NCBI GenBank assembly: GCA_937872895.1
Contig: CALMUP010000035.1
Span: forward strand, 1-64,000
From: an uncultured Verrucomicrobiota bacterium
GTDB taxonomy: Bacteria > Verrucomicrobiota > Kiritimatiellia > CAIVKH01
DNA length: 64,000 bases
Reading direction: 5' to 3'
The notes under the pieces are model-generated. The model ran no database searches, was not told the origin of the DNA, and saw only the letters and a program-made list of their open reading frames with translations. How positions within the stretch are numbered: the first letter of the stretch is position 1; each line of letters opens with the position of its first letter. A program made the position numbers and the translations under genes. Shown piece by piece: positions 9,419 to 61,469 of this stretch.

Positions 9419-9472
9419 GCGGTTGTCCAGGCATTGGACAACCGCGTGGGCCGGGTGTCCAGGGGCTGGACA
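9419..9472. repeat. Two adjacent TGTCCA/TGGACA hairpins between convergent genes
   Basis: GCGGTTGTCCA (9419-9429), loop GGCAT, then TGGACAACCGC (9435-9445) form a perfect 11-bp stem. A second, shorter palindrome TGTCCA-GGGGC-TGGACA follows at 9456-9472. The pair sits in the 81-base gap between the convergent debranching-enzyme and protease genes. There is no T tract, so these may be bidirectional processing or rho-assisted ends, or members of a small dispersed palindrome family. Confidence 0.75.
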
Positions 9473-9490
9473 ACGGCAGGCGCGTCGCGG

Positions 9491-43474: not shown

Positions 43475-43550
43475 GCCCCCATCGTCTAGAGGCCTAGGAC
43501 ACCAGGTTCTCATCCTGGTAACACCGGTTCGAATCCGGTTGGGGGTGCCA
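43475..43550 (+). tRNA. tRNA-Glu (CTC)
   Basis: A complete 76-base tRNA can be folded: acceptor GCCCCCA / TGGGGGT (first pair G-U), D arm GTCTAGAGGCCTAGGAC, anticodon stem CCAGG / CCTGG around loop TTCTCAT (anticodon CTC, reading GAG), T arm ACCGG-TTCGAAT-CCGGT, then G and encoded CCA. The sequence closely resembles bacterial tRNA-Glu. Its 3' half also forms the antisense of the last 13 codons of the recombinase ORF, which fits insertion of the island at this gene. Confidence 0.97.
43510..43550. other. Candidate attachment site (attL) in the 3' half of tRNA-Glu
   Basis: The serine-recombinase frame reads into the tRNA and ends there, and the tRNA stays intact. Mobile elements that target tRNA genes usually keep the 3' part as the att core. 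The host gene cluster with its terminator lies on one side and element genes on the other. The other end should carry a direct repeat of part of 43510-43550, beyond this window. Exact core unknown. Confidence 0.55.
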
Positions 43551-44931
43551 TACTGAAATACTGGCTATTCTTCACGCACAACTCCCCGAAAATAGAATCA
43601 CTTGCGACGGTTCGAACTTTTCCTTTGCTGATGGTGATGCCATTCGGGAATAAACTCAAAATCATCCGCGGACGGTCTTTTGGCTCACATTTGGCCCATA
43701 TCGTTGCGATATTCTTCATGCGTTCCTCGGCAAGTTCCAGTTGTCGATCGTTCATACGGATGGTGCTGTCAGCATCGGAAAGCTGATTACGCGCAGCGGC
43801 GAGCTGGCTATCCAACGACCGGCTCTTGCGATCAAAGATATCATTGGAAATGCGGTCGCTGAGCAATGCATCAACCAGTTTGTCTTTCTGTCTTTCCAAG
43901 TCAGTGATTTCCGCCGTGAGGCGGCCCTTGTCCGCCAGCGCTTGCGCAGAATCGCGATGGGCCTGATTGTCTACGAACCGCCGGAAAAACGGCATGTGCT
44001 CCAGCATGGCGTCGGAGACCTCGACGAGCAGCGCCTCGATGTCCGGCAGGATGTCTTCGGGCCGCACCCTGGACTTATGCCCAGTTACATCACAGTGATA
44101 ATAGTCGTAATGCTTACGGCGGCCTTTGGAGCGTGACGCTGTCATGGGCCTCTTGCAGGTTCCACAGACGAGCACGCCCTTGAGAGGAAACAAATCGAGC
44201 CGCTTGTTGGCGGGACGAACGTTGCCGAGAGCTTTCTGGACGCCGTTAAACAAGAGCGAGTCGAGCGTGGCGTAAATAGGATCCCTGAAGAGTCCATAGA
44301 ACGATGTCCGGCAGAGATCCGGCATCAGCAAGTCATACGCATCTTTCGGTTTTTCGCCTTTGATGACCATTTCAAAGGCGCGCCGGACAAGAGAACCGGT
44401 GATCTCGTCTTCTTCAAGCATGGGAATGCCGTCGGCACGACGGACAATCTTGAAGCCATAGGGAGCCTTGTGGCACCAACCGCCAGCGGCCTTAATGGCT
44501 TTCATGGCGGTCTTGGCTCGGGCAGCGCGCACGGAGTTGTCGAACTCTGCATAGGAGGCAAAAATATTTTCCATCAACGCCCCAGCGGCATCGTCGGAAA
44601 CCGGCTCGGAGACGGAAATGATCTGCACACCGGACTTGCGCAGTTTCGCCCGATATACCGCATAGTCGTACATGGATCGAGCAAAGCGATCCGTGCGATA
44701 CACGACAAGTCGGGTGATCAGATTCTTTTTGTTGGTACAGGTGTCAATCATCCGAAGAAATTCTGGCCGATCGGCGGTCTTCGCGGACTCGCCGCGTTCG
44801 ACAAACACTTCGAATACCTCGAAGCCATTACGGCTGCACCACTCGCGGCAATCCCGCTCCTGTGTGGAAAGGCTGGTGTTGTCCACCTGTTCGGTTGAAC
44901 TTACGCGACAATAAATTACGGCTTTTGACAT
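43510..44931 (-). CDS. Large serine recombinase (site-specific integrase)
   Basis: The 473-residue protein has the resolvase/invertase catalytic domain: KAVIYCRVSSTEQVDNTSLSTQERDC (nucleophile Ser in CRVSS), VYRTDRFARSMYDY (catalytic arginines), then a recombinase domain (GGWCHKAPYGFKIVRR), a zinc ribbon (CGTCKRPMTASRSKGRRKHYDYYHCDVTGHKS) and a C-terminal coiled coil (LTAEITDLERQKDKLVDAL). It would integrate and excise the element. ATG 44931 follows CAGGAGGATGGAGCC. The final 13 codons (MAPPTGFEPVLPG) are read from the tRNA antisense; the true element-encoded end may be near residue 460. Confidence 0.93.
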   Translation of the reverse strand: MSKAVIYCRVSSTEQVDNTSLSTQERDCREWCSRNGFEVFEVFVERGESAKTADRPEFLRMIDTCTNKKNLITRLVVYRTDRFARSMYDYAVYRAKLRKSGVQIISVSEPVSDDAAGALMENIFASYAEFDNSVRAARAKTAMKAIKAAGGWCHKAPYGFKIVRRADGIPMLEEDEITGSLVRRAFEMVIKGEKPKDAYDLLMPDLCRTSFYGLFRDPIYATLDSLLFNGVQKALGNVRPANKRLDLFPLKGVLVCGTCKRPMTASRSKGRRKHYDYYHCDVTGHKSRVRPEDILPDIEALLVEVSDAMLEHMPFFRRFVDNQAHRDSAQALADKGRLTAEITDLERQKDKLVDALLSDRISNDIFDRKSRSLDSQLAAARNQLSDADSTIRMNDRQLELAEERMKNIATIWAKCEPKDRPRMILSLFPNGITISKGKVRTVASDSIFGELCVKNSQYFSMAPPTGFEPVLPG

Positions 44932-45077
44932 GGCTCCATCCTCCTGCAAATGTCGAGAAGCACCTTGGCAAGCGTATAGAACTGAAGACGTTTGTCTTCG
45001 CACTCTTTGTCGGTAAGATGCATTCCGAACTTAGCACGAATCTCTTCGTTTGTAATCTCTTCAGGCAAAATTTTCAC
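44916..45077 (-). CDS. 53-residue protein between replicase and recombinase, doubly overlapped
   Basis: A GTG start overlaps the replicase stop (GTGTGA), giving VKILPEEITNEEIRAKFGMH, then LTDKECEDKRLQFYTLAKVL and LDICRRMEPCQKP. The stop lies 13 bases inside the recombinase gene, in another frame. The tight fit on both sides and the charged helical composition argue it is real and translated by coupling. A role as recombination directionality factor or integrase modulator is possible from position only; no family is recognised. Confidence 0.68.
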   Translation of the reverse strand: MKILPEEITNEEIRAKFGMHLTDKECEDKRLQFYTLAKVLLDICRRMEPCQKP

Positions 45078-48000
45078 ACTTTTGCCCCCCAGTTTTGCCC
45101 GATGGCGGCTTCGACTTCTACGGGGACGGTGGGGAAGAGCGCGGACATGGCCTCGATCATCGAGGCTACGAGGATCTGCTTGGCTTGCTCGGCTTTGTCT
45201 GCCGGTGCCAGGGCGATGAGTTCATCGTGGACGGTCGACACCAAACCACAGTCGGGCGGCAGTCGCTGGGCGATCAGGATGACGGCTTTTTTGATGCCGT
45301 CGGCAGAACCGCCCTGCACCGGAGTGTTGAGCGAAGACGCAAAGCGTTGCCAGCCATACTCACTTCCCGACAGCAGCAATCGCCGCCGTCCGGTTATCGT
45401 TCGGATCTCGGTGGCGTCGGCAGAGGCGTATTGGGTTTTATCCTGCCAGGCCTTGAGCATGGGATAGCCGGCGAAGAACCGTTCGCGGATTTCCCTGGAC
45501 CGGGCTTCCGACATTTCAACGCCATAAACCGACTTGGCATACTTGACCAAGCCGCGCGCGCTCTGGCCATAGAGCAGGCCGAAATTGACCGCCTTGGCCA
45601 ATTGGCGATCATCCTTGGTTACTGTCTCCGGCTGTTTCTCGAGTACCAAGGCGGCGGTCAGGCGATGCAGGTCAATGCCATTACGGTAAGCCTCGATCAT
45701 CTTGGGTTCCCCCGCGATGGCCGCCGCCACGCGCAGTTCGATTTGCGAGTAGTCGGCGACGACCAGGGAATATCCCTCCGGCGCGGCGAAGGCGGAGCGG
45801 ACCGGGCCACGCGGAACGTTCTGGAGATTCGGGTCCCTGCTGCTGAACCGGCCGGTTTCTGTGCCGGTCGGATCGAACCGGGAATGAATGCGGCCATCTG
45901 GCGCTACTGCCTCAAGCAGGGACTTGGTCTGCTGAGCCCGCTTGGAGGCTTCCCGGTAAGCAAGAATAGCCGGGATGTAGAGTTGATCTCCGGCCTCAAT
46001 GAGCGCCTCCTCCCCGGTACTGGCGACATCAATGAACTTATGAGCCAAGGCGGCCTTCAACTGCACAGGTGATGCCGGGTTCAGGTCGGGCCTTCCGAAA
46101 AGCTGACGTAGGCGGGCCTGTTCTTCATTTGCCGCCTTGATGGCTTCGGTATGGAAAGCCTCAAGGGTTTCCTTGTCCACCGGGAAACCGCGCGCCTCCA
46201 TGTCCACGATGGCCGGCAATAGTTCCATCTCCATCCGATACACCTCGGACAACCCGGCCTCGGCCAATGCCTTCTCAAGGGTGGCCTGCAAGTTGTGGAG
46301 ATGGATGACGTCAGCGGCGGCGTAGCGGATCTGGGCCGGGGCCAGATTCCCGCCCCAAGGAGCGGTCTGGGCGGTTTTATCCAGCTTGATCCCCAGGTGG
46401 CGCTCGACCACGGCCTCGAGGCTGTTGCGTTCACGGGTGCCCGCAGTAAGTAGCCGGCTGGCCGTCATGGTGTCCCAGAGGTTGGGCATGGCCAGCCCGC
46501 ACTTCAACTTGAGCCAGAGGGCGTCAAATTTCAGGTTATGGCCGACTACCACCCCGGAGGACATCACCGGACCCAGCGGGCCAAGGGCATAGCCGATGGC
46601 CTGCAGGTCGATCAGCCAGGGGGGCCCGCCGGGCAGGGAAAGGGTCAAAAGCCGGATATTTCCCCGCCAGGGATCGGTTTCGTATCCCTTTGGGCCGTAA
46701 GTTTCTAGATCCAGGGCGATGGGGGTGTTGGCGATGGCCAAACGCTCGGCGATTTCAACCAGCCCCGAGGGGTCTTTGACGTACACCATGGATACATTGG
46801 ACAGGTTCGCTACCTCTATATGATTACCTTCAATTTCCTTTATCTCTTCTCTCTCCAATACAGTGCTACCCTCATAATCGATAGGGTTGGCAACCTGTCC
46901 ATCCTGTCCGGAGTGTCCTCCGAAAATGGACTCAAGGATCAGCTTTCGGCGGTCAGGGGAATCACCATCGGTGACCTTCTGGAAGCGGTAAGTATGGCGG
47001 ATGGTGCGCACCGTGGTCTCGTTGGCCTGCAGGCGGATGCCACCCAGAACCCGCCCCACATACTTACGAAAATGGACGCCAAACTTCGTCTTGTCACCCG
47101 CTTTATCGAAGTCCATCCAGGCGAAAATATCCCCGTCGGACTCCTTGATCAGCTCGTAGATGGCGTCCTTCTTCACCCACTCCTGGTCGAACTTGGCGTG
47201 GCCGGCAATAAACAGAGCCTTCATGTCCGCGGTCAACCGGTCACCGTCGATAGAGGAATCCTCGGTGTGAGGAAGGCAAGGGTCGCCAAGCCCGGCCACA
47301 TGCATGATGCCACCGACCACGGAGGCCCATTTCGGAAAACTGGTGAAGACCCCCGGTCCGGCCGGACGACCTGCCGCGTCCCAGGCGTTCACCAGCGCGG
47401 CCAGCGCCGACACAAATTGATCACGGGTGTGGAGAATCCAACCATGCAGGTCCGGATTGGAAAACCGCCGTGCATTGGCATGCTCCTCCTCGTAATGCAG
47501 CATGATGATCCGGCTACGGTTGCCGAAGTCCGGGGTGTAGGTCAGGCCCACGTTTGCCGAGAGACTTATCTCCAGCTCGTTCGGGATGGTCACCTCGATG
47601 TTTTCGCCCAAGCGCCGGTCCGTCCACATCGGCGCGGTGACGATCATCTCAAACGCCGCGTTGTTAATATGCCCCCGGCAGTTGGCAAAGTGAATCCGGC
47701 GGCGCCCCGACAGCAGGGCGGCGGTGATTTTTTTCCGGGTCTCCGGTTCGTCGGAGTTGAGCGGTGCATCCTCGTTCGGGCGGCCTTCGTATAGCAGGGG
47801 ACAAAGGGCGGCGAGGAAGTCCTTGCCCGCCCGCTCGCGGTTGGCCTTGTATATCCACACCGGCGTACGCTCGTTCCACCGGCCAAACAATCCCTTGCAG
47901 AATGGGGTGATCAACGCGGCCAGGGCATGGACGAGCGCCTGTTCATGGGCAAAACAAAACTCACAAAAAAGCTGACGGAGAAGATCCACAGCCTGAGCTG

Positions 48001-49462
48001 GCGACATTCGACGGATACTCGGAGCGTTGGGATTCAGAAAGGTGCGGAATGAGGGATCATACCCGGCCTGCGGGTAACCGATAGATCCATCGGCCCGAAT
48101 GATGGGAACGGGGATGTCCAGAATGCGATCGACCTTGGCCAGATGAGTCCGGAATTGGGGTGACGCCAACAGGGCCTTGGCGGTGTTTTCCGTCATGGAC
48201 TTTGAGACGAAAACCCTCTGACCGTTACCGTCGGGCATGAGGGCACCGACCTCGGCAAACTTTTCCACGAAGGTAATAGCCCGCACCGGGCGTAGTGCGG
48301 TGAAGCCAAGGGTGGTGGCTTTCTTGCTGATCTGCTGCTGGGAAACCTCCACGATTTGATCATGCCGGACAAACAAGCCATCCTCAGCAGTGTGCGCACC
48401 GAGGATTTCGCCGGCGTCATTGGCGAAGTCCGACTGCGGACGTCCCGGCCCCGGCAAGAGTAACCGCGGTCGCCCGTCATGTGCCGCTTGGCCGGTCTGC
48501 CAAACCCGTTGCTGACGGCAATGCTTGTCCACAATGCCCGGCGTCCGATCCTCCAAATGATTCAGAAAGTCGGCCAGTGACTTTTCCCCGTGGGAGGTGT
48601 GCAGGCACTTGAAGCCTGGCCAATTCCCGTCCCTGCCTTCAAAGATCACTGTGCCGCTGTCATTTCGTGGATCGGGTTGGGTGGTGTGGGCGTCGGACCA
48701 AGGACACCGGATCGCATACTTTCCTTCATCCGCATCGAGTACACGCGGCTCAAGGCCGGCTTCTGTGACCAACGCCACCATATCCAGCGTAGCCAGGTCG
48801 CCCATAAAGCGGTTTTGCCAAAAAACCTTCTTCGAGTACTTGGTAGTGACTGGCGAGGCCGACTGATTCGATGGAATTTCGAGAATACGGGCAAGGTCCG
48901 CCCATGCAACCGAAGGCAGCGGACCGAATACCTCCCACCGGTAAGACGCACCGCTTTTATGGACCGAGGGCGCGAGTACCACGTTGCCCCCGAAAAACAC
49001 CTCGCAGTTCACCGTGTTGTTCAGGGCTAAGATCAGCTTCTGCTGTTTGCCCGCCGCTTGCAGAACCTCCGGCGGAATATCCTGGCAAAGCACATGCAGA
49101 TGCACCCCGCCGGTGGTGCGTTCACGAGGCCAGGTGTGAACGGCATTACTCGCGGCAACCCAAGACTCAACACTCGCCCCGGCATCCGCCTTGCTGTCCA
49201 AATCAATCACGATATGCGGAGGTTGCACCAGCAATCCCAGATTCCGCTGATGCCCATTACTGAAATACTTCAGAAAATATGCATCAGTGGAATCCTCTCG
49301 CTTGCGATTCTTCCAGCCTTTCTCCACCGGTTTTTTGCCGCGTTCACTCTCGGTCCCGTCGCCAGGACCATAGAGGGCGTGGACCGTCCAGGCCAGCTCG
49401 TCCCGGTAAAGACGGGCTGCATCGAGGACGCTCCGGTGATTGATGTCGGGCGGGATGATCAT
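45074..49462 (-). CDS. Four-part replicase: prim-pol primase, P-loop region, 3'-5' exonuclease, family A DNA polymerase
   Basis: The 1462-residue protein combines in one chain: (1) an archaeo-eukaryotic-type prim-pol domain, with VIDLDS (Asp87, Asp89), TTGGVHLHV (His121/123) and VNCEVFFGGN...APSVHKSGASYRW; (2) a Cys/His primase-like finger (about 253-290, CPWSDAH...CLHTSHGEKSL); (3) a P-loop-like region (about 536-660) whose Walker A is ANRERAGKD with Lys547; (4) a DnaQ-fold 3'-5' exonuclease with intact ALDLE (918/920), GHNLKFD (980) and YAAADVIHL (1051); (5) a PolA polymerase with ADYSQIELR (Asp1237), RQLAKAVNFGLLYG and TVHDE (Asp1413). ATGA/GTGA overlaps tie it to both neighbours. Confidence 0.93.
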   Translation of the reverse strand: MIIPPDINHRSVLDAARLYRDELAWTVHALYGPGDGTESERGKKPVEKGWKNRKREDSTDAYFLKYFSNGHQRNLGLLVQPPHIVIDLDSKADAGASVESWVAASNAVHTWPRERTTGGVHLHVLCQDIPPEVLQAAGKQQKLILALNNTVNCEVFFGGNVVLAPSVHKSGASYRWEVFGPLPSVAWADLARILEIPSNQSASPVTTKYSKKVFWQNRFMGDLATLDMVALVTEAGLEPRVLDADEGKYAIRCPWSDAHTTQPDPRNDSGTVIFEGRDGNWPGFKCLHTSHGEKSLADFLNHLEDRTPGIVDKHCRQQRVWQTGQAAHDGRPRLLLPGPGRPQSDFANDAGEILGAHTAEDGLFVRHDQIVEVSQQQISKKATTLGFTALRPVRAITFVEKFAEVGALMPDGNGQRVFVSKSMTENTAKALLASPQFRTHLAKVDRILDIPVPIIRADGSIGYPQAGYDPSFRTFLNPNAPSIRRMSPAQAVDLLRQLFCEFCFAHEQALVHALAALITPFCKGLFGRWNERTPVWIYKANRERAGKDFLAALCPLLYEGRPNEDAPLNSDEPETRKKITAALLSGRRRIHFANCRGHINNAAFEMIVTAPMWTDRRLGENIEVTIPNELEISLSANVGLTYTPDFGNRSRIIMLHYEEEHANARRFSNPDLHGWILHTRDQFVSALAALVNAWDAAGRPAGPGVFTSFPKWASVVGGIMHVAGLGDPCLPHTEDSSIDGDRLTADMKALFIAGHAKFDQEWVKKDAIYELIKESDGDIFAWMDFDKAGDKTKFGVHFRKYVGRVLGGIRLQANETTVRTIRHTYRFQKVTDGDSPDRRKLILESIFGGHSGQDGQVANPIDYEGSTVLEREEIKEIEGNHIEVANLSNVSMVYVKDPSGLVEIAERLAIANTPIALDLETYGPKGYETDPWRGNIRLLTLSLPGGPPWLIDLQAIGYALGPLGPVMSSGVVVGHNLKFDALWLKLKCGLAMPNLWDTMTASRLLTAGTRERNSLEAVVERHLGIKLDKTAQTAPWGGNLAPAQIRYAAADVIHLHNLQATLEKALAEAGLSEVYRMEMELLPAIVDMEARGFPVDKETLEAFHTEAIKAANEEQARLRQLFGRPDLNPASPVQLKAALAHKFIDVASTGEEALIEAGDQLYIPAILAYREASKRAQQTKSLLEAVAPDGRIHSRFDPTGTETGRFSSRDPNLQNVPRGPVRSAFAAPEGYSLVVADYSQIELRVAAAIAGEPKMIEAYRNGIDLHRLTAALVLEKQPETVTKDDRQLAKAVNFGLLYGQSARGLVKYAKSVYGVEMSEARSREIRERFFAGYPMLKAWQDKTQYASADATEIRTITGRRRLLLSGSEYGWQRFASSLNTPVQGGSADGIKKAVILIAQRLPPDCGLVSTVHDELIALAPADKAEQAKQILVASMIEAMSALFPTVPVEVEAAIGQNWGAKV

Positions 49463-49599
49463 AGAACTAACAGAACGAAAAGCAGGTGCGCAACGACGAA
49501 ACCCAGTAGGAACGAATGAAGCACTATCGTGCAGAAAAATAGGTTGTTGATCTCATAGCGATCACCAAGCCATGCGTTGAATTTACCGAGGAATTTCAT
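49459..49599 (-). CDS. 46-residue single-helix membrane protein in the replication operon
   Basis: ATG 49599 overlaps the nuclease stop (ATGA) and the stop overlaps the replicase ATG (ATGA). GAAAGGAGAATCCGT gives an excellent ribosome site. The peptide is MKFLGKFNAWLGDRYEINNL followed by FFCTIVLHSFLLGFVVAHLL and FVLLVL, a hydrophilic head and one membrane helix. It is below most gene-caller cutoffs. The double coupling suggests a deliberate stoichiometric partner of the replicase or nuclease, perhaps a membrane tether. Function unknown. Confidence 0.78.
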   Translation of the reverse strand: MKFLGKFNAWLGDRYEINNLFFCTIVLHSFLLGFVVAHLLFVLLVL

Positions 49600-50405
49600 A
49601 CGGATTCTCCTTTCTCGCGGGGGTCATAGCCTTTGATGTGACGCCAAATAGCGCACACATGAAGGAAGGTGTCGTACAGTTCGGGAAGATTCGGGTGCTT
49701 ATAAACCTCGAACCGGCCCGGTTCGGTTGTGCTAATGTAGACGTTCGCGGCCAGCACTCGAGGTAGCGCCTCAATGCCATAGAAGGCGGCGGAGTATGCG
49801 GCCAGCTGCATTCCTTGGCCATCATACGGCGTTACGATTTCACCGGGTTTTGTCTTGCGGGTTTTGTAATCCAGAATCCCGATGCCTTTTTTCCCAAACG
49901 TGAAGAGTGCATCGGTGCATCCGGCATAACCCTCTTTCAGATTCACCAGAACCTTTTCCCGTTCGGTGATGGTGATGCCGGTGGAGACTTTCCACTTTAG
50001 GACAGGTTCAATGTAAACCGCCAATGCAGGATCATAAGGCTCACCGGCGAAAACTAACTCCAGGGCAGCGTGGATCGAGGAACCAAGCTCTGCCGCGTCC
50101 TCCACCTGCTTGAATGCCTCGTCATTCACCCTACGGGCCCAGTAATAGATGGGTTCGTTGGGCAAACGAGGTGTACGTTCCGCGGCCTGGATGGCCTGCT
50201 CGATTTTCCATTTCGTCAGAGCTGGTTTGTCCACGACGGACAAGTAGGACGTCACTGACGGAATCAAATGCAAAGCTTCGGCATCCGTGATGCGGGTGGG
50301 CCGGGTGCCATCGCCCGACTTGGTGGGTTGCTGGTGGGCCGGCTTGCCGTCTGCTGTGTACCAGTGCGAAGCTTGGCCGAATCGGTCTTTCGTTAGAATT
50401 GCCAT
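49596..50405 (-). CDS. PD-(D/E)XK exonuclease (RecB/Cas4-like)
   Basis: The 269-residue protein has an early helical segment (YYWARRVNDEAFKQVEDAAELGSSIHAALELV, with the His of motif I), then GYAGCTDALFTFGKKGIGILDYKTRKTKPGEIV, the D...DYKTRK motif (D-x(n)-ExK-type with Asp/Lys), and GMQLAAYSAAF (motif QxxxY). This is the RecB/Cas4 nuclease pattern seen in phage and mobile-element recombination/replication genes. No Cas genes or CRISPR array are near, so a Cas4 adaptation role is unlikely. AGGA lies before ATG 50405; its stop overlaps the 46-residue gene. Confidence 0.85.
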   Translation of the reverse strand: MAILTKDRFGQASHWYTADGKPAHQQPTKSGDGTRPTRITDAEALHLIPSVTSYLSVVDKPALTKWKIEQAIQAAERTPRLPNEPIYYWARRVNDEAFKQVEDAAELGSSIHAALELVFAGEPYDPALAVYIEPVLKWKVSTGITITEREKVLVNLKEGYAGCTDALFTFGKKGIGILDYKTRKTKPGEIVTPYDGQGMQLAAYSAAFYGIEALPRVLAANVYISTTEPGRFEVYKHPNLPELYDTFLHVCAIWRHIKGYDPREKGESV

Positions 50406-50463: not shown

Positions 50464-50979
50464 TCAGAACGGCAGTTCATCCTGTTCGGTATCGACCGGA
50501 TCCGGTTCGGGCGCCTTCGGGGGCGAGGGCGGCGTCGGCATCGTATCGAAGCCTTCAGGCACCGGTGCGATGCTGATGATCCGCGCATAAGAAACGCCTG
50601 GGCGCGTCCGTGAAGGTTCATGCGTGATCGTCAACAGCACCTTGCGGCCCTTAAGCGAAGTCAGATCCAGGTTGTAAGCGGGCGGCTCGCCCAGCCAACT
50701 GGTCAGAAACTGGTAGAGCGCTGACTTCGGATTGCCGGAAAGCCGCATGGACCGCGAAGCGATCTTGAACGGCTTGCCGGTCTTGTCGCGGAATCCGAAA
50801 AGGAAACCCGTAAGGTCAACCTTCTCGGTCTGCTCAGATTGGAATTTCTTGCGCTCGACGCCGTAGGCGTCCTTCGTATCGATGCAGGTCGCAACGAATG
50901 TACCCTTGGGCGGCGTATCGCCTTGCAGCTCGAATAGCGAGCCGGCGAGTGAGGGTGCGGATTCTGGTAGTAGTGCCAT
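50464..50979 (-). CDS. Probable single-stranded DNA-binding-type protein with DELPF tail
   Basis: The 171-residue protein has a beta-rich middle (KGTFVATCIDTKDAYGVERKKFQSEQTEKVDLTGFLFGF...GKPFKIASRSMRLSGNP, GRKVLLTITHEPS, YARIISIAPV) and a long Pro/Glu linker that ends in EQDELPF. The C-terminal acidic-hydrophobic DELPF closely parallels the DDDIPF tail of SSB, which recruits replication partners. It is expected to coat ssDNA for the adjacent replicase and exonuclease. I cannot assign a specific family. AAGGAG lies before ATG 50979. Confidence 0.72.
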   Translation of the reverse strand: MALLPESAPSLAGSLFELQGDTPPKGTFVATCIDTKDAYGVERKKFQSEQTEKVDLTGFLFGFRDKTGKPFKIASRSMRLSGNPKSALYQFLTSWLGEPPAYNLDLTSLKGRKVLLTITHEPSRTRPGVSYARIISIAPVPEGFDTMPTPPSPPKAPEPDPVDTEQDELPF

Positions 50980-50982
50980 GAC

Positions 50983-51168
50983 TTACTTCTCCTTCGTGTT
51001 GGGTTTGTTTGTTTCGGACATCTTCTTGGTAGGAATCTGGTCGCGCGGGTCACCGTCGCGGTTGAAATCGTATTCGTACTCGGTCCACAGATCGTGGACG
51101 GCGGCTTTGTCACCAGCCTTGGCGAGGTCGAGGAGCTGAATAAAACGCGGGTCAAGCGAAGGCATCAT
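50983..51168 (-). CDS. 61-residue hypothetical protein in the element operon
   Basis: The start ATG overlaps the preceding gene stop (ATGA). The sequence MMPSLDPRFIQLLDLAKAGDKAAVHDLWTEYEYDFN is helical, and the tail (PTKKMSETNKPNTKEK) is polar and disordered. Only three bases separate it from the SSB-like gene, whose ribosome site lies in its last codons. A small charged protein of unknown function; the compact gene packing supports that it is real. Confidence 0.68.
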   Translation of the reverse strand: MMPSLDPRFIQLLDLAKAGDKAAVHDLWTEYEYDFNRDGDPRDQIPTKKMSETNKPNTKEK

Positions 51169-51488
51169 TGTGCAGCCCTCCGGTGTTGGCGCAGTTGACG
51201 GGCGCGGTTACGAAAATCATCACTGGAAAGGTAGGCAAGGACCTCGGAAGCCTTGAAACGGGGACGTCCGGCGAGTTCGTGACAAGGGACCTGCCAACGC
51301 CAAAGTGTCGACGGGTGAAAATTAAGCTTTTCGGCAAGCTCGCGGAGGGTGAGGAAAGGCTCGGGTTCCGAAAGCAGGCTGGTGTCAGCTTGGTCGGAGT
51401 TTTCAAGAAAGGCAATGGCCTTTTCTTGTATATGGGCTGGAACTTTCTCCAGCGCGGCTATCAAACGAACTGCTCGGTCGGGCTTCAT
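51165..51488 (-). CDS. Helix-turn-helix (MerR/excisionase-like) DNA-binding protein
   Basis: The 107-residue protein has a helical N-terminus (AVRLIAALEKVPAHIQEKAIAFLEN) and a C-terminal FLTLRELAEKLNFHPSTLWRWQVPCHELAGRPRFKASEVLAYL, the winged-HTH pattern of excisionase and phage regulator DNA-binding domains. It may be the element's Xis or operon regulator. ATG 51488 follows CGAGGTGGAG; a TTG upstream at 51512 is less likely. It leads the lower half of the operon after a 90-base gap containing a small hairpin (GCTTCCCG/CGGGAAGC, 51531-51549). Confidence 0.82.
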   Translation of the reverse strand: MKPDRAVRLIAALEKVPAHIQEKAIAFLENSDQADTSLLSEPEPFLTLRELAEKLNFHPSTLWRWQVPCHELAGRPRFKASEVLAYLSSDDFRNRARQLRQHRRAAQ

Positions 51489-51578
51489 CTCCACCTCGGG
51501 TTGGTTACACAACCCTTGGTGGGTAGATCGGCTTCCCGGGCCGGGAAGCTACTATTCCCGGACTAGGTTAGGCTATCG

Positions 51579-54101: not shown

Positions 54102-54710
54102 ATGATTAAGAACGTCAAGAAAATGAAAAAAAACGCCCGATTGGGGGACCTGGCGGAAATCAAGGGGGGGTATGCACCTCGGCGGGGCGTGGAGGATGAG
54201 AAGGCGGGTGAGGTGGCCTTTCTGCAGGTCGGTGATTTCAGCGAGGACCGACGGCGGATCGAGAAGGCCCCGACGCACATTAATCCGGAGGGTAGCAATC
54301 CGCGGATGCTTCAGGCGGGTGACGTGCTCTTCTTGGCCAAGGGGCGGAAGCCTTTTGGGTATGCGCTCAATAAGGTCGAGAAGCCGATGATTGCAGCCGG
54401 GTACTTTTTCATCGTGAGGCCATCGGATCGCGTGGTCCCTGAGTATCTGGCTTGGTTCCTCTCTCTGGAGAATACACGGCGTCATCTGTTGAAGGAGGCG
54501 GGGGGCGGCACGCATATGCCGGTGGTTCGCAGAGATGTTTTGGAGAGCATCGAGATTCCGCTTCCGTCCCTTGAGGTGCAGCGGGCTGTCGTCGAGCTGG
54601 CTGAACTTATGGAAGAGGAAGCGGACTTATTGGAGAAGATGAAACGGCTGCGGGCGCAGCTGGTGGGTGGGATGTTGAGGCAACTGATTGAAGAAGGAGA
54701 TGCGCAATGA
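54102..54710 (+). CDS. hsdS: Half-size type I restriction specificity subunit (HsdS-like)
   Basis: The 202-residue protein has one target-recognition domain (LGDLAEIKGGYAPRRGVEDEKAGEVAFLQVGDFSED, MLQAGDVLFLAKGRKPFGYALNKVEKPMIAAGYFFIVRPSDRVVPEYLAWFLS) and one conserved helix (PLPSLEVQRAVVELAELMEEEADLLEKMKRLRAQLVGGML). A full HsdS has two of each (about 400 residues), so this half-subunit may dimerise to read a palindromic target, as in some known systems. It overlaps hsdM by ATGA. A second, full-length HsdS is encoded at 60216. Confidence 0.85.
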   Translation: MIKNVKKMKKNARLGDLAEIKGGYAPRRGVEDEKAGEVAFLQVGDFSEDRRRIEKAPTHINPEGSNPRMLQAGDVLFLAKGRKPFGYALNKVEKPMIAAGYFFIVRPSDRVVPEYLAWFLSLENTRRHLLKEAGGGTHMPVVRRDVLESIEIPLPSLEVQRAVVELAELMEEEADLLEKMKRLRAQLVGGMLRQLIEEGDAQ

Positions 54711-56209
54711 ATGATAAGGCAATCAAGGATGAAATTTTCAACGTGGTGTGGGCGGCGTGTGACACCTTCCGGGGGGTCATCGATCCTTCCCAGTACAAGG
54801 ACTACGTTTTGACCATGCTTTTCGTGAAGTACCTGAGCGATATCCGCAAGTCGAAAGCAGCGGAGTATTCGGGAAAGTACCAGAACGACCCCGTGCGGGT
54901 GGAGCGTGCGCTGGCGCGAGAGAGGTTCATCCTCCCGGAGGACTGCACCTTTGATTACCTATACGCGCACCGAAACGACAACGAAATTGGACAGACCATC
55001 AACGCGGTCTTGGAGAAGATCGAGGATGGTAACAAGGCCAAGCTTCATAATGTGTTTCGGAACATCGATTTCAACAGCGAGGCGAACCTCGGAAAAGCTC
55101 GCCAGCGTAACCAGCGCCTCAAAACCCTGCTCGAGGATTTCAATGAGCTGGACCTGCGACCCGAGCGCGTCGGACACATGGACATCATTGGTGATGTCTA
55201 TGAGTACTTGATTGCTCGCTTTGCCGCGCAGGCAGGGAAAAAGGCTGGAGAATTTTACACGCCGGCCGAGGTGTCGGAAACGTTGGCCCGTTTGGTCGCG
55301 CCCGAGTCGGGCGACCGGATCTGTGACCCGACCTGCGGTTCCGGCTCTCTCCTGATCAAGGCCGCGAAACAGGTGGGGTCTCGCGATTTCTCTCTGGCGG
55401 GGCAGGAAATGAACGGCAGCACGTGGGCGCTCTGCAAGATGAATATGTTCCTGCACGACGTGGACGCCGCTCGCATCGAATGGGAAGACACAATCCGCCA
55501 TCCGCTTCTGATAGAAGGCGATGCGCTGATCAAGTACGACGTGGTTGTCGCCAACCCTCCCTTCAGTTTGGACAAGTGGGGCCAGGAGATCGCCGCCAAC
55601 GACAAGTACCAGCGGTTCACGCGTGGGGTGCCGCCGAAAAGCAAGGGCGACTGGGCCTTCATTCTTCACATGCTGTCCACTGCGGTGGAGGGGAAGGGCC
55701 GAGTGGGCGTCGTTGTACCGCATGGGGTGCTGTTCCGGGGCGGCCAGGAGGGCGCAATTCGAAAGGCCGTTATTCAGGAAAATATGCTCGCCGGTGTGGT
55801 GGGATTGCCTTCCAACCTGTTCTACGGGGCCGGAATTCCAGCAGCCTTGTTGATCTTTGACAAGAGTCGCAAGCATGCCGACAAGGATAAGGTGCTGTTC
55901 ATCGACGCATCACGTGAATACGAGCAAGGGACCAACCAGAACAAGCTGCGCCCGGAGGATATCAACAAGATCATCGATACCTTCCATACCCGAAAGGAAA
56001 TCGAGAAGTACTCGCACCTCGCCACCTATGCGGAGATCGAGGAGAACGAGTTCAATCTGAACATCCCCCGTTACGTCGATACCTTCGAGCCGGAGCCTGA
56101 GGTGGATATCGCTGCCGTGCAGAAGGAAATCGAAGACCTGGAGGCGAAGCTGACGGAGACCAGAGCGAAGATGGACGGCTATCTGAAAGAGCTGGGGTTC
56201 ATCAAGTAG
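54707..56209 (+). CDS. hsdM: Type I restriction system DNA adenine methyltransferase
   Basis: The 500-residue HsdM has an N-terminal helical domain (VWAACDTFRGVIDPSQYKDYVLTMLFVKYLSD), SAM motif I in ICDPTCGSGSLLIKAA (near residue 206) and catalytic motif IV VVANPPFSLDKWG (NPPF near 282). A C-terminal coiled coil (VQKEIEDLEAKLTETRAKMDGYLKELG) contacts HsdS. It makes N6-methyladenine within the target read by HsdS and protects host DNA. Overlaps the half hsdS by ATGA; nine bases before the PLD gene. Confidence 0.95.
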   Translation: MNDKAIKDEIFNVVWAACDTFRGVIDPSQYKDYVLTMLFVKYLSDIRKSKAAEYSGKYQNDPVRVERALARERFILPEDCTFDYLYAHRNDNEIGQTINAVLEKIEDGNKAKLHNVFRNIDFNSEANLGKARQRNQRLKTLLEDFNELDLRPERVGHMDIIGDVYEYLIARFAAQAGKKAGEFYTPAEVSETLARLVAPESGDRICDPTCGSGSLLIKAAKQVGSRDFSLAGQEMNGSTWALCKMNMFLHDVDAARIEWEDTIRHPLLIEGDALIKYDVVVANPPFSLDKWGQEIAANDKYQRFTRGVPPKSKGDWAFILHMLSTAVEGKGRVGVVVPHGVLFRGGQEGAIRKAVIQENMLAGVVGLPSNLFYGAGIPAALLIFDKSRKHADKDKVLFIDASREYEQGTNQNKLRPEDINKIIDTFHTRKEIEKYSHLATYAEIEENEFNLNIPRYVDTFEPEPEVDIAAVQKEIEDLEAKLTETRAKMDGYLKELGFIK

Positions 56210-56218
56210 AGATACGCC

Positions 56219-58588
56219 ATGCCGGTCGAATCCATAAAATTGTCAGACTTTTTCGGGAGCATCAAAAAACCGAGGTATGTTCTGGGCACGACGTACACGC
56301 TGAGCCTGGCGTTCTTCGAGTCGGTGGTGTTTCCGTATATCGACCGGTCCCGGTTGCGCTCGTGTTTTATTATTGCCGACAAGATTGGGTATCAGCGCGC
56401 GATTTCAGAGGCCGCCGCCCTGCAAAGCGCGGGGAATGGTTACATGGTCGCGCCAGCACCAAGGTCGGGCTGTTTTCATCCCAAGGTTTGGCTCGTGATC
56501 GGTGAGTCGGAAATGGCGATGCTCGTGGGTAGCGGCAATCTGACGCAATCGGGCTTTATGGTGAATGCCGAGTACTTTGACTCGGTCTTCATCAGCAAAG
56601 AGGAGCCTGCCGATGAGCGCCTCGTGCGCGACATAGAATCGTTTGTGGCCGGGCTGGCCGGTATGTGGGGCGAGGGCAATTCTGCGGGGTCGCTGTATGT
56701 GGAGACTCTCGATCAGATTCGGCGCGCTATAACTGTGTTTCGCGGCGGCCAAGCCGAAGAAGCGGTCCCCCGGCTGATCCACTCTTTTTCCGGAAAGCTG
56801 ATCGACGGACTGCCGGAAGTGCCAGACTGCACGGAGCTGTATGCGGCAGCCCCATTCTTTGGCGGGAAGGACGACGGTCTCCGCTTGCTGGCAAGCCGGT
56901 ATCCCAAAGCAAAGTTGCACGTGTTTCCGGCCGTTCACGGCGCGGAAGCTACAGACTTGCCTATTACCAAGGTGAAGGAGGAATTTAAGCCGAAGACGCT
57001 GGCAACGCTGCGCGTTCCCGGAAAGGCGCGTCCGCTCGCGCATCTGAAGCTGTACGGCATCAAAGGCTCATCCGCATCCTGGATGTACTGCACCAGTGCC
57101 AACTGCACGGCAGCAGCGTGGTCGGGACCGAACGTCGAGGCCGGGCTGCTCCGCCCGGTCGGTGGGACCGTGCTGAAAGAGTACTTTCGCGCTGATAAGA
57201 CGAAACTCCCGTCCGGTGAGCTTGAGTACAGCGGCGAATCGGACTCCGTGAATAACTTCTCTCTGACAGCATCGGAATCTGGGCTCGGGTTGGAACTTGT
57301 CGCGGCCGGGTCCGAACGTGATCGCCTGCCGATTACCGATGTCCGCCTGACGGTGCGGGTTGGAAGCCACTCGGCGGTTTTTGCCGCGAAGACGCTGTTC
57401 GCGGGTCACGGTACGGAGCATGTGTCGTGGGACAGCTTCGTTGGGTGGCACAGGACCCGGAACATGGCGGTCTGCCTAGAGCTCATCGCGAAGGACAAGG
57501 CCGGCAAGCCAGTCTCGGCAGCGTGTTTTGTCGAAAACCGCATGCTGTTGACCGCCGACCCAATCCACCGGAGTGCCTGGCGTGGTGCTCTGGCTTTGCT
57601 CGACAGTGAGTCAATGCCTGACCTCTCCGATATTGCCGCCATATTTACCCTTGTGGGTAACATTTTCGATGGCCGCATCATCACCAGATCGGTGTCGGTA
57701 CGGGATAGTGACAGCGACGATATCGAGCCCGATGAAGAGGAGGAATCGAGTGTCCATGTGGCTATCTGGCCGCCGCAGCCGGTACATCATGACCTTCAGC
57801 GACAACTAGGGACGACGGGCATCGGTCAACTCCAGTGGTGTCAGAGAATCCTGCAGACATTCCTGAAGCCGGAGTCGGCGCAAGAGGGAAGGCCCAAGGT
57901 CGAGGTGCACGAAACGGCGGATGATGCAGATGACGAGGAATCGGCCGAGATAGAAGCGGCCAGGGAGGCCGAGCGCGAGCAGCTTCAGCGATTGGCCGAC
58001 CGCATCTGGAGCAAGGCGGAGAAAGATTATGGGAGGCTGACGAACCGACTACTGACACTCGAGCCGGATGAAAAGGTCGCGGAGAATCTTTGGCCGGCGG
58101 CCGTCTTTGTGTTTCTGGCGACGATGGCCGTTCGGCGGGCCGCTAGCCGTATGGCCAATAATGTCGGTGACATACCGGCCGCCGCAGCGTTGGCGAATGA
58201 GTTCCTGTATCTGATGGTCAATCCGCGGGAGCAGCATGAAAACTTCTGCTGCTCCCGGGACATGCGGTACCGGCATACGACGTTTCCGCCGCTATCCAAG
58301 GACCTCCGCGATGAGTTCAACATCACAATTCACCCGGACCTGTCTACCGTCATGCTGGCTGTGGTGGCCCAGAAGAAGATGCGGGAGGCGCCGAATGGCG
58401 AGTACCCGCTCCTCTGGCCCCGCCTCCTCGGCGAGGTGGTCGGAGAGGGCTTTAATTGGGACGAGGGTGCCGTTGAAACCTGTCGCCATGTGTGGCGTCA
58501 GTACCTACGCGAAGACACGTCAAAGGAAACGGACGAAGAGTTCATGGATACCCTGCTTTGGCTGAAAACGACAAGGAATCCGTTGTGA
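56219..58588 (+). CDS. Phospholipase D-fold protein with two HKD motifs, part of the R-M island
   Basis: The 789-residue protein has two PLD half-sites: HPKVWLVIGE...LVGSGNLTQSGF (His87, Lys89, GSGNLT 104-109) and HLKLYGIKGSS...CTSANCTAAAWSG (His275, Lys277, 292-297). Both active halves look intact apart from variant Asp positions, as in many PLD nucleases. The rest (about 310-789) has a beta-rich part, a Glu/Asp-rich linker (near 505-595), and a helical C-terminus. Its stop overlaps the next gene (GTGA). In DISARM and other defence systems PLD proteins are thought to be nucleases; here a nuclease role is inferred. Confidence 0.82.
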   Translation: MPVESIKLSDFFGSIKKPRYVLGTTYTLSLAFFESVVFPYIDRSRLRSCFIIADKIGYQRAISEAAALQSAGNGYMVAPAPRSGCFHPKVWLVIGESEMAMLVGSGNLTQSGFMVNAEYFDSVFISKEEPADERLVRDIESFVAGLAGMWGEGNSAGSLYVETLDQIRRAITVFRGGQAEEAVPRLIHSFSGKLIDGLPEVPDCTELYAAAPFFGGKDDGLRLLASRYPKAKLHVFPAVHGAEATDLPITKVKEEFKPKTLATLRVPGKARPLAHLKLYGIKGSSASWMYCTSANCTAAAWSGPNVEAGLLRPVGGTVLKEYFRADKTKLPSGELEYSGESDSVNNFSLTASESGLGLELVAAGSERDRLPITDVRLTVRVGSHSAVFAAKTLFAGHGTEHVSWDSFVGWHRTRNMAVCLELIAKDKAGKPVSAACFVENRMLLTADPIHRSAWRGALALLDSESMPDLSDIAAIFTLVGNIFDGRIITRSVSVRDSDSDDIEPDEEEESSVHVAIWPPQPVHHDLQRQLGTTGIGQLQWCQRILQTFLKPESAQEGRPKVEVHETADDADDEESAEIEAAREAEREQLQRLADRIWSKAEKDYGRLTNRLLTLEPDEKVAENLWPAAVFVFLATMAVRRAASRMANNVGDIPAAAALANEFLYLMVNPREQHENFCCSRDMRYRHTTFPPLSKDLRDEFNITIHPDLSTVMLAVVAQKKMREAPNGEYPLLWPRLLGEVVGEGFNWDEGAVETCRHVWRQYLREDTSKETDEEFMDTLLWLKTTRNPL

Positions 58589-60213
58589 GTAACATGCCCA
58601 AATATCCTTTCCTGACGATGGACTTCTCGCCGCGCGGTGGCGGTATCGATTTCCTCGGGCTGCGCTATGTGAACCTTCACATGGTCGGCAATTACCTGAT
58701 TCCTGAGCTGAACAACGTTACCCGTGATATGGGCATATTCTTCCTCGGTGCCTGGGTTCCGTGGAAGTTCCGCCAACTTAGCGGTGAAGACAACTTCACA
58801 CCGAAGCAATACCGAGCTTTTCGAGAGAAGGCCGAGGTGGCCATCTCTCTGAATATGCGCGATGAAGCCCCCGCCGCTCAGAAATTCGGCAATACCCGCA
58901 ACCGCGTCGGCGTGACCCAGAATTGCCGGTTGCCGGGGCCTTTGACTTTCAAGGCGGCATCGCGCAGACCTCAGAACAGCTTCTATGCGGCAGCCATTTA
59001 TGGACCGGCGCTCGTGGCCTTGCACTGCGTGGACTCCTACGATGTCCGGGCCAGGGATGGTGTGTACCTGAATATCGCCACCGCATCCCCCGATCCCGAT
59101 ACGCGAACGATTGTGGAGACGGTGGACGCGGCGCTCCGCGAATCGGATGCTTACGATAAGCTGGCGTCGCTGGAGGACGAGGCATTCACGGAAGAGGAGG
59201 TGGACGAACTCGGCCGCAACGGACTAGCGCCACCCTGTTACCGGCACCAGCGCTTCAATGCGCTCAAGCCACTTTTCCAGAAGAAGCTGCTGCCGGCAGA
59301 CGCCAATGCCCGCGGCTATGCACGTACGCGGACAACCCGTCTTCTTCTGGCGACTCTGGAACAGCACGATGGCCAAACGAGCGATGAAATCCGCAATGCC
59401 TGGTACACCGGGCACTTTGGTGATGGTTCTGTTCTGCGGTTGGCCGATGAGGATCTCGAAGACATGCGGCAGTACTGGTCACACTTCATGGCGCGCCAGT
59501 ACCAGCGGTATGCCATTGAATTGATGCTGTGGTGTTTTGAAACCGCGCTTGTGAACGGTTGCCGCTCGATTGAGGAGGCTGTGGATTACTGGGTCACGCG
59601 AAGTCACGACGCAGGCCAGGCGCTGCCCGTCACCTTCCGACAGATGATCGATGATGTCGCCGGCAAGCTTAAGAAGGATGACGACCAAGCCACCTCGAGG
59701 GCATGGAACGACTCAGTTCACGGCGAACATGAGCGGTTCGAATTCGTGTATGAAGCGCATGGTGATGAGGGGTGCGTACATGCGCTTCGTATGTGTGCCG
59801 GGTGGTACTGGCGGATGCTTCGTTGGGATAATTCCGGGCCGTACAAACACCTGATGACCCTGGGAGATTCGGACCGCATGAGCATGAGTTGGTTTATCGA
59901 GTGGCTTCAGAAGCGGCAGGAACTGCCGATCCGGGACTTCCTCAAGGATGTCTTTTCGGACTTGGTGTTTTCCCAGCATATGCGGATCGCATTGTCGCGA
60001 TTCGACGGGCGGGCGCAGCGGTTGCGATTTGTCCTCGGTGACAACGGTATCGAGGCGACGGTCAGTGCGCGCGGCGACCTCGGCAATCTCCGGCTCCCGT
60101 GGATGCCGGACCGGCTGGATACGTTGATTGAACTTCTATGTGATGTCGATGTGTTGAAGCTGGATGAGAATGGAGTGGTGAGTCTAGGGCGTAGAGCAAG
60201 CGGGGTGAAGTAA
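58585..60213 (+). CDS. Unrecognised 542-residue protein coupled to the PLD protein
   Basis: GTG 58585 overlaps the PLD stop (GTGA) with AAGGA upstream; the sequence starts MSNMPKYPFLTMDFSPRGGGIDFLGLRYVNLHMVGNYLIPELNNVTRDMGIFFLGAWVPWKFRQ. Further segments are mostly helical (NALKPLFQKKLLPADANARGYARTRTTRLLLATLEQHDGQTSDEIRNAWYTGHF, FMARQYQRYAIELMLWCFETALVNGCRSIEEAVDYWV). No known catalytic or membrane motif was found. The tight coupling suggests it forms a complex with the PLD protein. Only three bases precede full hsdS. Confidence 0.78.
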   Translation: MSNMPKYPFLTMDFSPRGGGIDFLGLRYVNLHMVGNYLIPELNNVTRDMGIFFLGAWVPWKFRQLSGEDNFTPKQYRAFREKAEVAISLNMRDEAPAAQKFGNTRNRVGVTQNCRLPGPLTFKAASRRPQNSFYAAAIYGPALVALHCVDSYDVRARDGVYLNIATASPDPDTRTIVETVDAALRESDAYDKLASLEDEAFTEEEVDELGRNGLAPPCYRHQRFNALKPLFQKKLLPADANARGYARTRTTRLLLATLEQHDGQTSDEIRNAWYTGHFGDGSVLRLADEDLEDMRQYWSHFMARQYQRYAIELMLWCFETALVNGCRSIEEAVDYWVTRSHDAGQALPVTFRQMIDDVAGKLKKDDDQATSRAWNDSVHGEHERFEFVYEAHGDEGCVHALRMCAGWYWRMLRWDNSGPYKHLMTLGDSDRMSMSWFIEWLQKRQELPIRDFLKDVFSDLVFSQHMRIALSRFDGRAQRLRFVLGDNGIEATVSARGDLGNLRLPWMPDRLDTLIELLCDVDVLKLDENGVVSLGRRASGVK

Positions 60214-60215
60214 TC

Positions 60216-61469
60216 ATGAATGATCCGAACGAAAATAGGCCAGGGTATAGGAAGACGAAGGTGGGGTGGATTCCGGAAGAGTGGGAGTGCACGACATTAG
60301 GTATAATGGCCGCGCCTTTTCGCGCCGGCGTTAGCGTGAATGCGGATGACAGGCCTGCCCGTGACGGCGAGTGCGGCGTGCTCAAGACAAGCTGCGTATA
60401 CAGCGGAGTCTTCAATCCTCAAGAAAACAAGGTTGTGAAAACCGAAGAGATCGATCGTGTGCGTGTTCCAGTCCAAAGAGGCTGCGTGATAATGAGTCGT
60501 ATGAATACGCCGACTCTAGTGGGCGCTAATGCATACGTGGACCAAGACTGGCCTACGATGTTTTTGCCCGATCGACTCTGGCTTATAAAACCAGAGAATG
60601 ATAGTCGAGATGATCCGATATGGTTCGGCTATTTGATGAATGCAACCATCGTACGGAATGCTGTCGCTGCTCGTGCAACCGGAACAAGCGGAAGCATGAA
60701 GAATGTCACACAAGAAGATGTGCGACGTATCCATGTGCCTAGACCACAAAAGGAGGAGCAGATAGCGATGTCGTTATTGCTCTTGTTGTGGGGGCAATCT
60801 ATAGCATGCGTTGAAGAAATGCTGAAAGCCAAAAAGCTGCGCAAGAAGGGGCTTATGCAGCAGCTCCTTACTGGCAAGAGCCGCCTGCCGGGTTTCGCGG
60901 GAGAGTGGAAGGAAAGGCGTCTTGGCGACCTGTTTACAGAACGCAGAGAAACAGGCCGATGCGATCTGCCCCTATTGGCAATAACCGGAAGCAAGGGCAT
61001 TGTTCCAGCCGTTGATCTCGACCGAAAGGATGCATCAAATCAGGATAAATCCAAATATTTGAGAATCTGCCCAGGAGATATCGGATATAACACTATGCGC
61101 ATGTGGCAAGGCGTCAACGCCGTTTCGTCTCTGGAAGGTATTGTGAGTCCTGCCTATACGATTTGTACTCCCAAGGATTATACGCATGTTGGTTTCATGG
61201 GCCACTTTTTCAAGTATCAGTTCGTGGTACATCAATTCTGGCGACACTCACAAGGGCTTGTCGATGATACGCTCAGTCTAAAGTACCACAATTTTGCCTG
61301 CATAAAGCTCTATGTGCCGGAGAAGGAAGAGCAGGAAGCCATTGCACTTATCCTAGACGCCGCAGACGAAGAGATCGCCGCCGAAGAGCGACGTCTACTC
61401 GCCCTGCAGGATCAGAAACGCGGCCTGATGCAGAAACTCTTAACTGGGGAAGTGAGGGTGAAGGTATGA
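60216..61469 (+). CDS. hsdS: Full-length type I restriction specificity subunit
   Basis: The 417-residue HsdS has two TRDs, the first with YRKTKVGWIPEEWECTTLG at its start and the second with LPGFAGEWKERRLGDLFTERRETG, each followed by a conserved helix: PRPQKEEQIAMSLLLLLWGQSIACVEEMLKAKKLRKKGLMQQLLTGK and VPEKEEQEAIALILDAADEEIAAEERRLLALQDQKRGLMQKLLTGE. It gives bipartite sequence recognition. Its stop overlaps the coiled-coil gene by ATGA. It coexists with the half-size HsdS at 54102, so the locus may have two specificities. Confidence 0.93.
   Translation: MNDPNENRPGYRKTKVGWIPEEWECTTLGIMAAPFRAGVSVNADDRPARDGECGVLKTSCVYSGVFNPQENKVVKTEEIDRVRVPVQRGCVIMSRMNTPTLVGANAYVDQDWPTMFLPDRLWLIKPENDSRDDPIWFGYLMNATIVRNAVAARATGTSGSMKNVTQEDVRRIHVPRPQKEEQIAMSLLLLLWGQSIACVEEMLKAKKLRKKGLMQQLLTGKSRLPGFAGEWKERRLGDLFTERRETGRCDLPLLAITGSKGIVPAVDLDRKDASNQDKSKYLRICPGDIGYNTMRMWQGVNAVSSLEGIVSPAYTICTPKDYTHVGFMGHFFKYQFVVHQFWRHSQGLVDDTLSLKYHNFACIKLYVPEKEEQEAIALILDAADEEIAAEERRLLALQDQKRGLMQKLLTGEVRVKV

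Follow-up and report, generated by a model that had tools for sequence, protein, structure and literature searches.

Replicases that unite several steps of DNA synthesis in a single polypeptide are already known as such, the examples being PREX, the Pyrovirus 3173 polyprotein, GP55 and, as read here, Pas55. The Pyrovirus 3173 PolA polyprotein (TOSV/TGBSV) comprises 1606 amino acids (aa) with a DUF927/P-loop region, an exonuclease and PolA, and is found fused or unfused in sister viruses (PMC7689252). PREX carries primase, helicase and polymerase on one chain that is cleaved later (PMC9631997). In GP55 of lactococcal phage 1706, helicase, AEP primase, exonuclease and family-B polymerase activities have been shown biochemically in one protein (PMC12205980). 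Pas55 of the Actinoplanes phage phiAsp2 (AAT36803.1; L161:4984-9231), annotated as a 'putative DNA polymerase', is a 1415-aa fusion of DUF3854, helicase and PolA with a GKN/DE nucleotide site. ORF904 of pRN1 and NrS-1 each join an AEP and a helicase in a single chain. Finally, a further report notes fusions of D5 helicases with Primpols and with PolA-exo and describes these helicases as 'invariably active' (PMC10853773).

Here we describe a gene from an uncultured bacterium of the Verrucomicrobiota (class Kiritimatiellia) whose product joins an AEP, an SF3-type AAA+ domain, an exonuclease and a family-A polymerase in one chain; this combination, together with a conserved non-standard P-loop, is what is new. 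Throughout the text "the window" means the whole stretch of DNA analyzed, that is, positions 1 to 64,000 of contig CALMUP010000035.1, and residues are numbered from the initiator methionine. The gene lies on the minus strand (45074..49462) and is defined by its open reading frame, its domain matches and a full-length homologue of 52% identity; the frame starts with ATG and runs from 49462 to 45074 without interruption over 1462 codons, encoding 1462 aa. From the N-terminus, and all on the minus strand, the protein consists of a Prim-Pol (AEP) domain (residues 24-177; 48932..49393; Pfam PF09250, 1.5e-10), a Cys/His cluster (residues 253-291; 48590..48706), an SF3/D5-type AAA+ domain with its lid (residues ~331-830; 46973..48472; PHROG matches, alignment and Foldseek), a DnaQ-like 3'-5' exonuclease (residues 893-1066; 46265..46786; PF01612, DNA_pol_A_exo1, 4e-21) and a family-A polymerase (residues 1098-1459; 45086..46171; PF00476, DNA_pol_A, 2.4e-80). 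A preliminary description, made from the letters and a list of open reading frames, had proposed that a single frame holds an AEP, a P-loop segment, an exonuclease and PolA; the 1462-aa reading frame and its Pfam matches bear this out, and every motif named there (IDLDSK with D87 and D89, GGVHLHV, ANRERAGKD, ALDLE, GHNLKFD, YAAADV, DYSQIELR and VHDE) was located. The linker of the replicase contains possible, weak internal translation starts.

The homologue, 1493 aa long and identical in domain order, is encoded on contig JAKLGK010000010.1 (G029) of Verrucomicrobia bacterium RA.bin38, a metagenome-assembled genome that shares the class but belongs to a different family. The 52% identity extends from end to end and is distributed as 41% in the AEP, 42% in the linker with the Cys/His cluster, 59% in the SF3 core, 54% in the exonuclease and 57% in the polymerase. 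This is the full-length relative of the same domain order that the preliminary description had proposed to look for, and a third genome of the phylum (G426) supplies the join between helicase, exonuclease and polymerase: its contig opens within the helicase C-terminus and reads on in the same frame across exonuclease and polymerase for 797 aa.

Set against the described systems, the window protein resembles each in part. It shares with the Pyrovirus 3173 polyprotein a helicase-like N-terminal half, a 3'-5' exonuclease and PolA in a single chain adjoining a Cas4/RecB-like nuclease; unlike the window protein, and comparing by published description, that polyprotein is reported with consensus Walker A and B motifs, and an AEP is not reported for it (PMC7689252). 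Pas55 likewise places the same helicase family and PolA in one phage protein, but it has a TOPRIM-like DUF3854 N-terminus, a helicase of another clade (GKN/DE) and a very divergent polymerase. PREX also unites primase, helicase and exo/PolA in one polypeptide, and its polymerase falls within the same group at 99% support, whereas it is a Plasmodium nuclear gene that serves an organelle and its product is cleaved into parts. The primase of PREX is of the TOPRIM type and its helicase is Twinkle-like. GP55 differs in its family-B polymerase and in supporting its primase with an alpha-helical helper domain (aHD); the window protein shows neither. ORF904 shares AEP motifs I and II and the NrS-1 CTR matches structurally, but both proteins are without exonuclease and family-A polymerase. 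The D5 fusions have the same kinds of partners; the passage that notes them does not state that all occur in one chain, and the non-standard motifs of the window protein run against 'invariably active' (PMC10853773). Subscription papers aside, we found no description in the literature of an AEP, an SF3 helicase, an exonuclease and a family-A polymerase in a single chain. The earlier suggestion that this set is new is only partly supported: as one-gene replicases, PREX, Pas55, the Pyrovirus polyprotein and GP55 precede it, and D5 fusions to the same kinds of partners are already listed (PMC10853773).

The N-terminal AEP domain scores 42.2 bits against PF09250 (cut-off 22.8) and its RA.bin38 counterpart 54.8 bits. 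With a two-row profile ORF904 aligns to the window AEP at E 6.5e-4, its motif I aligning with IDLDSK (residues 86-91, with D87 and D89) and its motif II with GGVHLHV (residues 118-124, with H121). The third acid of the AEP is likely E154, judging from alignment to one other Prim-Pol (L038); the residue is absent from the TPWB-08 row. An AlphaFold2 model of the domain alone, from an alignment of only two rows, has a mean pLDDT of 40.6 and is too poor to use. The RA.bin38 homologue has lost the motif-II His, so that priming by that protein is doubtful and may be dispensable or altered. Between the AEP and AAA+ parts stands the Cys/His cluster (CPWSDAH...CLHTSH), which is mostly kept in RA.bin38 (CPWRTEH...CLHAHC) and is likely to bind zinc. 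In a further genome (G452; L147, about 9442-9600) a stretch of 53 aa resembles the N-terminus of the replicase and is probably what remains of a decayed copy.

The middle of the protein had been described as a P-loop-like segment and proves to be part of a genuine AAA+ domain of about 500 aa, as PHROG and Foldseek indicate. Residues 450-806 have no Pfam match and match PHROGs 10537, 29234 and 19930, some of which are annotated 'DNA polymerase/primase'. An AlphaFold2 model from an alignment of six rows is usefully confident only over residues of about 330-700, and Foldseek matched the AAA+ model to ASFV PrimPol/D5 (2.0e-4), the NrS-1 CTR (2.4e-4) and SCCmec Cch (3.5e-4) with probabilities of 0.97-0.99, as well as to AAV Rep40 and many phage primase-helicases. 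The model is assigned to the SF3/NrS-1 type of AAA+ fold on these probabilities and on its sequence family, with low global TM-scores; PDB sequences searched with the helicase-family profile yielded zero matches.

The nucleotide site of this domain departs from the family consensus. Across the family alignments (A3 and A7) the Walker-A Gly-Lys, the sensor-1 Asn and the Arg of the Arg finger do not vary, and all are present in the window protein, but the consensus GKS/T and the Walker-B Asp are not: Walker A (ANRERAGKD, residues 540-548; 47819..47845, minus strand) retains Gly-Lys and has Asp548 in place of Ser/Thr, and the Walker B position (IHFANC, residues 590-595; 47678..47695, minus strand) has Ala593 in place of the usual Asp. 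In all seven members with GKD, namely the window protein, RA.bin38, one phage (L042) and four from elsewhere in the phylum, the position of the Walker-B acid is occupied by Ala or Ser; in non-GKD relatives with both motifs readable it is Asp, Glu or, once, Gln. The combination of GKD and a lost Walker-B Asp can be read in the window (47678-47695 and 47819-47845) and in L041, L042, L128, L129, L131 and L133. In a helicase tree computed without the two Walker columns in question, the GKD members all fall into a single clade that requires each of the two changes only once, and on this tree the swap reads as a single coordinated event, the coupling of the two positions amounting to one change on one branch. 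In two phage members of the helicase family (L162:4522-7302 and L163:2670-6434) we noted GTGAT for GTGKT, i.e., a Walker A motif with no Lys.

What this site does is weighed between two readings. The AAA+ part may be dead as an ATPase and serve as a platform for holding DNA or for oligomerization, with the fork opened by a host helicase or by strand displacement of the polymerase. We give this explanation slightly worse than even odds: the GKD Walker A with AN at Walker B is common to the window, RA.bin38 and phage L042, and inactive D5-type SF3 domains are on record (PMC10853773), but the Gly-Lys, the sensor-1 Asn and the Arg finger are the residues that the family keeps invariant, and the pairing of GKD with A/S-N persists in 7/7 members of a clade in which pairwise identity, as sampled, drops to as little as 25%, so that the site looks altered but maintained rather than decaying. 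The most ambitious reading is a self-sufficient one-chain AEP-SF3-exo-PolA replicase with a rearranged motor site, in which the metal-binding Asp would lie in Walker A (GK-Asp) and not in Walker B, and which would form a conserved clade spanning phages and integrated elements; we put it forward tentatively and consider it rather unlikely. ATP-driven unwinding is the least certain step of the proposed replicase function and is unproven because the P-loop is non-standard, with GKD and without the Walker-B acid.

In the C-terminal part, exonuclease motifs I-III (ALDLE 916, GHNLKFD 974 and YAAADV 1047) are intact, as are polymerase motifs A, B and C (DYSQIELR 1237, RQLAKAVNFGLLYG and VHDE 1411). 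The best NCBIfam match of this part is the bifunctional exonuclease/polymerase PRK14975, and a PDB search ranks 8jrb (5.6e-81) and PREX, the plastid replication-repair enzyme of Plasmodium (2.5e-62), above Klenow and Taq. In an exo-pol tree from a quick search with SH-aLRT support only, whose rows do not include the 3173 polymerase, the window protein, RA.bin38, G426 and a standalone phage polymerase (L046) group together at 100%. A 12-row group at 99% SH-aLRT contains this clade, 8jrb, PREX, cyanobacterial plasmid polymerases and some phage polymerases. The tree thereby assigns the window polymerase to the PREX/cyanobacterial-plasmid branch and not to host PolA. Capture of the polymerase half from a host PolA is rejected by this placement, the chromosomal PolAs of related genomes forming their own 100% group apart from the window clade.

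The gene's surroundings are those of a mobile element, as had been proposed. Downstream of the replicase and on the same strand is a serine recombinase (43510..45003; PF00239, 3.5e-33; Zn_ribbon_recom; phrog_95 integrase, 1.8e-71) whose 3' end runs into a tRNA-Glu(ctc) predicted by ARAGORN (43475..43550, plus strand), which is the probable integration site. At the recombinase the GC content drops from 0.63 to 0.55, rising again only near 106 kb of the contig, and the low-GC stretch starts at the 3' end of the tRNA. A second copy (long direct repeat) of the tRNA-Glu end was not found, and the right end of the element is undefined. Upstream on the minus strand follow a RecB/Cas4-like PD-(D/E)XK nuclease (49596..50405; phrog_298, 2.5e-24), a 171-aa NGO0469-like protein with an SSB-like acidic tail (50464..50979) and an HTH protein resembling an excisionase or regulator (51165..51512; phrog_66, 8.9e-7). 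The expected SSB-like helper is matched by the 171-aa protein, which ends in DELPF and hits NF046043 at 8.9e-16 and 57.9 bits, below the family cut-off of 75; its gene has a relative adjoining the RA.bin38 replicase (2.2e-38). No relative of the RecB/Cas4-like nuclease was seen beside the RA.bin38 replicase, which lies near a tyrosine integrase and a tRNA-Phe. The replicase gene thus probably belongs to a mobile element of the serine-recombinase type, integrated in the tRNA-Glu, which would be either a prophage or a phage-like island.

Further along the low-GC stretch of this contig (C35) we observed a type I restriction-modification locus with two specificity genes, a methylase and an endonuclease (window 54102-63286, extending to about 66.5 kb; L152); a ZacB/PDC-M27B-like gene and a HEC-07-type gene lie in between its genes. 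At about 69.2-74.4 kb (L152:6224-11355) lies a ubiquitin-like/E1/JAB operon with a UBL-like protein of 89 aa, an E1-like and a JAB-like gene, and a later 277-aa gene that looks E2-like by eye and is without a PADLOC match. A phage head module on the minus strand at about 80.6-93.9 kb (L152, L154) contains terminase, portal, maturation protease and major head genes, with no tail genes recognized alongside, and RadC and RusA-type resolvase genes lie at 99-102 kb. The restriction, UBL/E1/JAB and head genes may belong to a single provirus with the replicase.

We favor the reading, at a probability of roughly 70%, that the gene encodes the replicase of the integrated element, copying excised element DNA through the joint action of the AEP, the D5-type ring and the exo-pol unit. 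Once the element has excised, its single-stranded DNA would be primed by the AEP domain with the aid of the Cys/His cluster, and the D5/SF3-type ring in the middle of the protein would act at the fork or origin, either opening it or holding it. Elongation of the primers, with proofreading, would fall to the exo-pol unit at the C-terminus. The SSB-like protein encoded nearby would cover single strands, and DNA ends would be processed by the RecB-like nuclease. That the protein primes, that its ring assembles, that the steps follow this order and that its role is element replication as against defense or repair is what we infer, and the earlier suggestion that one gene plus an SSB suffices to copy the element is unproven. 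The replicase reading is favored because the domains and their catalytic motifs are intact in the protein, because a full-length homologue and the G426 protein exist, because the gene sits on an island and because the exo-pol clade stands apart from host PolA. It is favored also by the replication neighborhoods in which unfused helicase and exo-pol relatives lie (L042, L046 and a cyanobacterial plasmid) and by a parallel TOPRIM-helicase-exo-PolA protein adjoining an integrase and a tRNA-Pro. Against it count the non-standard P-loop, the poor model of the AEP domain, the motif-II His lost in RA.bin38 and the missing long direct repeat of the tRNA end.

A role in host defense or repair instead of element replication is suggested by the Thermus ICETh2 Ppol-Hel pair, loss of Ppol having reportedly left replication of that element unaffected (PMC7693054), and by the type I restriction system and UBL/E1/JAB operon on the same island. 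We consider it improbable, since the single chain unites a proofreading exo-pol with an AEP-helicase, integrase genes lie near the replicase in three elements, the SSB-like partner is conserved in two elements and the phage versions sit in replication modules. That the frame is a misassembly or a chance join of adjacent primase-helicase and polymerase genes is scarcely credible: the genomes of both window and homologue are drafts in many contigs and the helicase and exo-pol parts do exist as standalone proteins, but misassembly or frameshift is ruled out by the full-length homologue in RA.bin38, the in-frame member in G426 and a GC3 that is even across the gene (0.62-0.80, without a step at any domain join), and the one-chain frame is not an assembly artefact.

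Relatives of the N-terminal 880 residues occur in 23 of the 388 sampled genomes of the phylum, where only the window and RA.bin38 proteins are full-length and one fused member (G426) is truncated. None of 72,556 plasmid records and none among the best 5,000 of 50,697 phage records contains the greater part of the protein in one record, the matches being to the exo-pol or helicase part only. An initial scan of genome contigs found no homologue and an alignment-based scan RA.bin38 only; scanning viral sequences for the AEP domain gave no match, and further helicase scans returned L042 again and nothing else.

The separate parts recur in other arrangements. The helicase of phage L042 is unfused (702 aa, CHC2-like N-terminus, 39% identical) and adjoins a B-type polymerase, and the helicase is found with CHC2-TOPRIM primases in many elements. 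In phage L046 an unfused exo-pol adjoins a PriCT-RecA primase-helicase gene; this polymerase and the fused one of G426 are sisters at 99%, so that joining or splitting occurred within the clade. On a 12-kb cyanobacterial plasmid (L159:1821-6662), an AEP-DnaB gene is followed directly by an exo-pol gene, a two-gene version of the set. By eye only, terminase-like and DEAD-helicase genes (L042:2612-5179 and L046:2866-5298) are seemingly split by intein-like insertions. A parallel one-chain replicase is encoded in G012 (L014:6118-10806), a 1562-aa CHC2-TOPRIM-helicase-exo-PolA protein adjoining a tyrosine integrase and a tRNA-Pro. The helicases of G012 and Pas55 fall in separate supported clades of the helicase tree and their polymerases on separate long branches of the exo-pol tree, where placement is unsure; the fusions of this helicase type to PolA therefore look independent, the simplest reading being at least three such events.

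Proofreading single-chain primase-polymerases are of practical value for isothermal DNA amplification. The altered site makes it possible to ask, on a natural example, whether a P-loop motor can run when its acid has been shifted out of Walker B into Walker A. One-protein replisomes, still few in number, gain a version with an AEP and a family-A polymerase, and if SF3 helicases and PolA have been joined at least three times, as the trees suggest, the question of why they fuse becomes testable.
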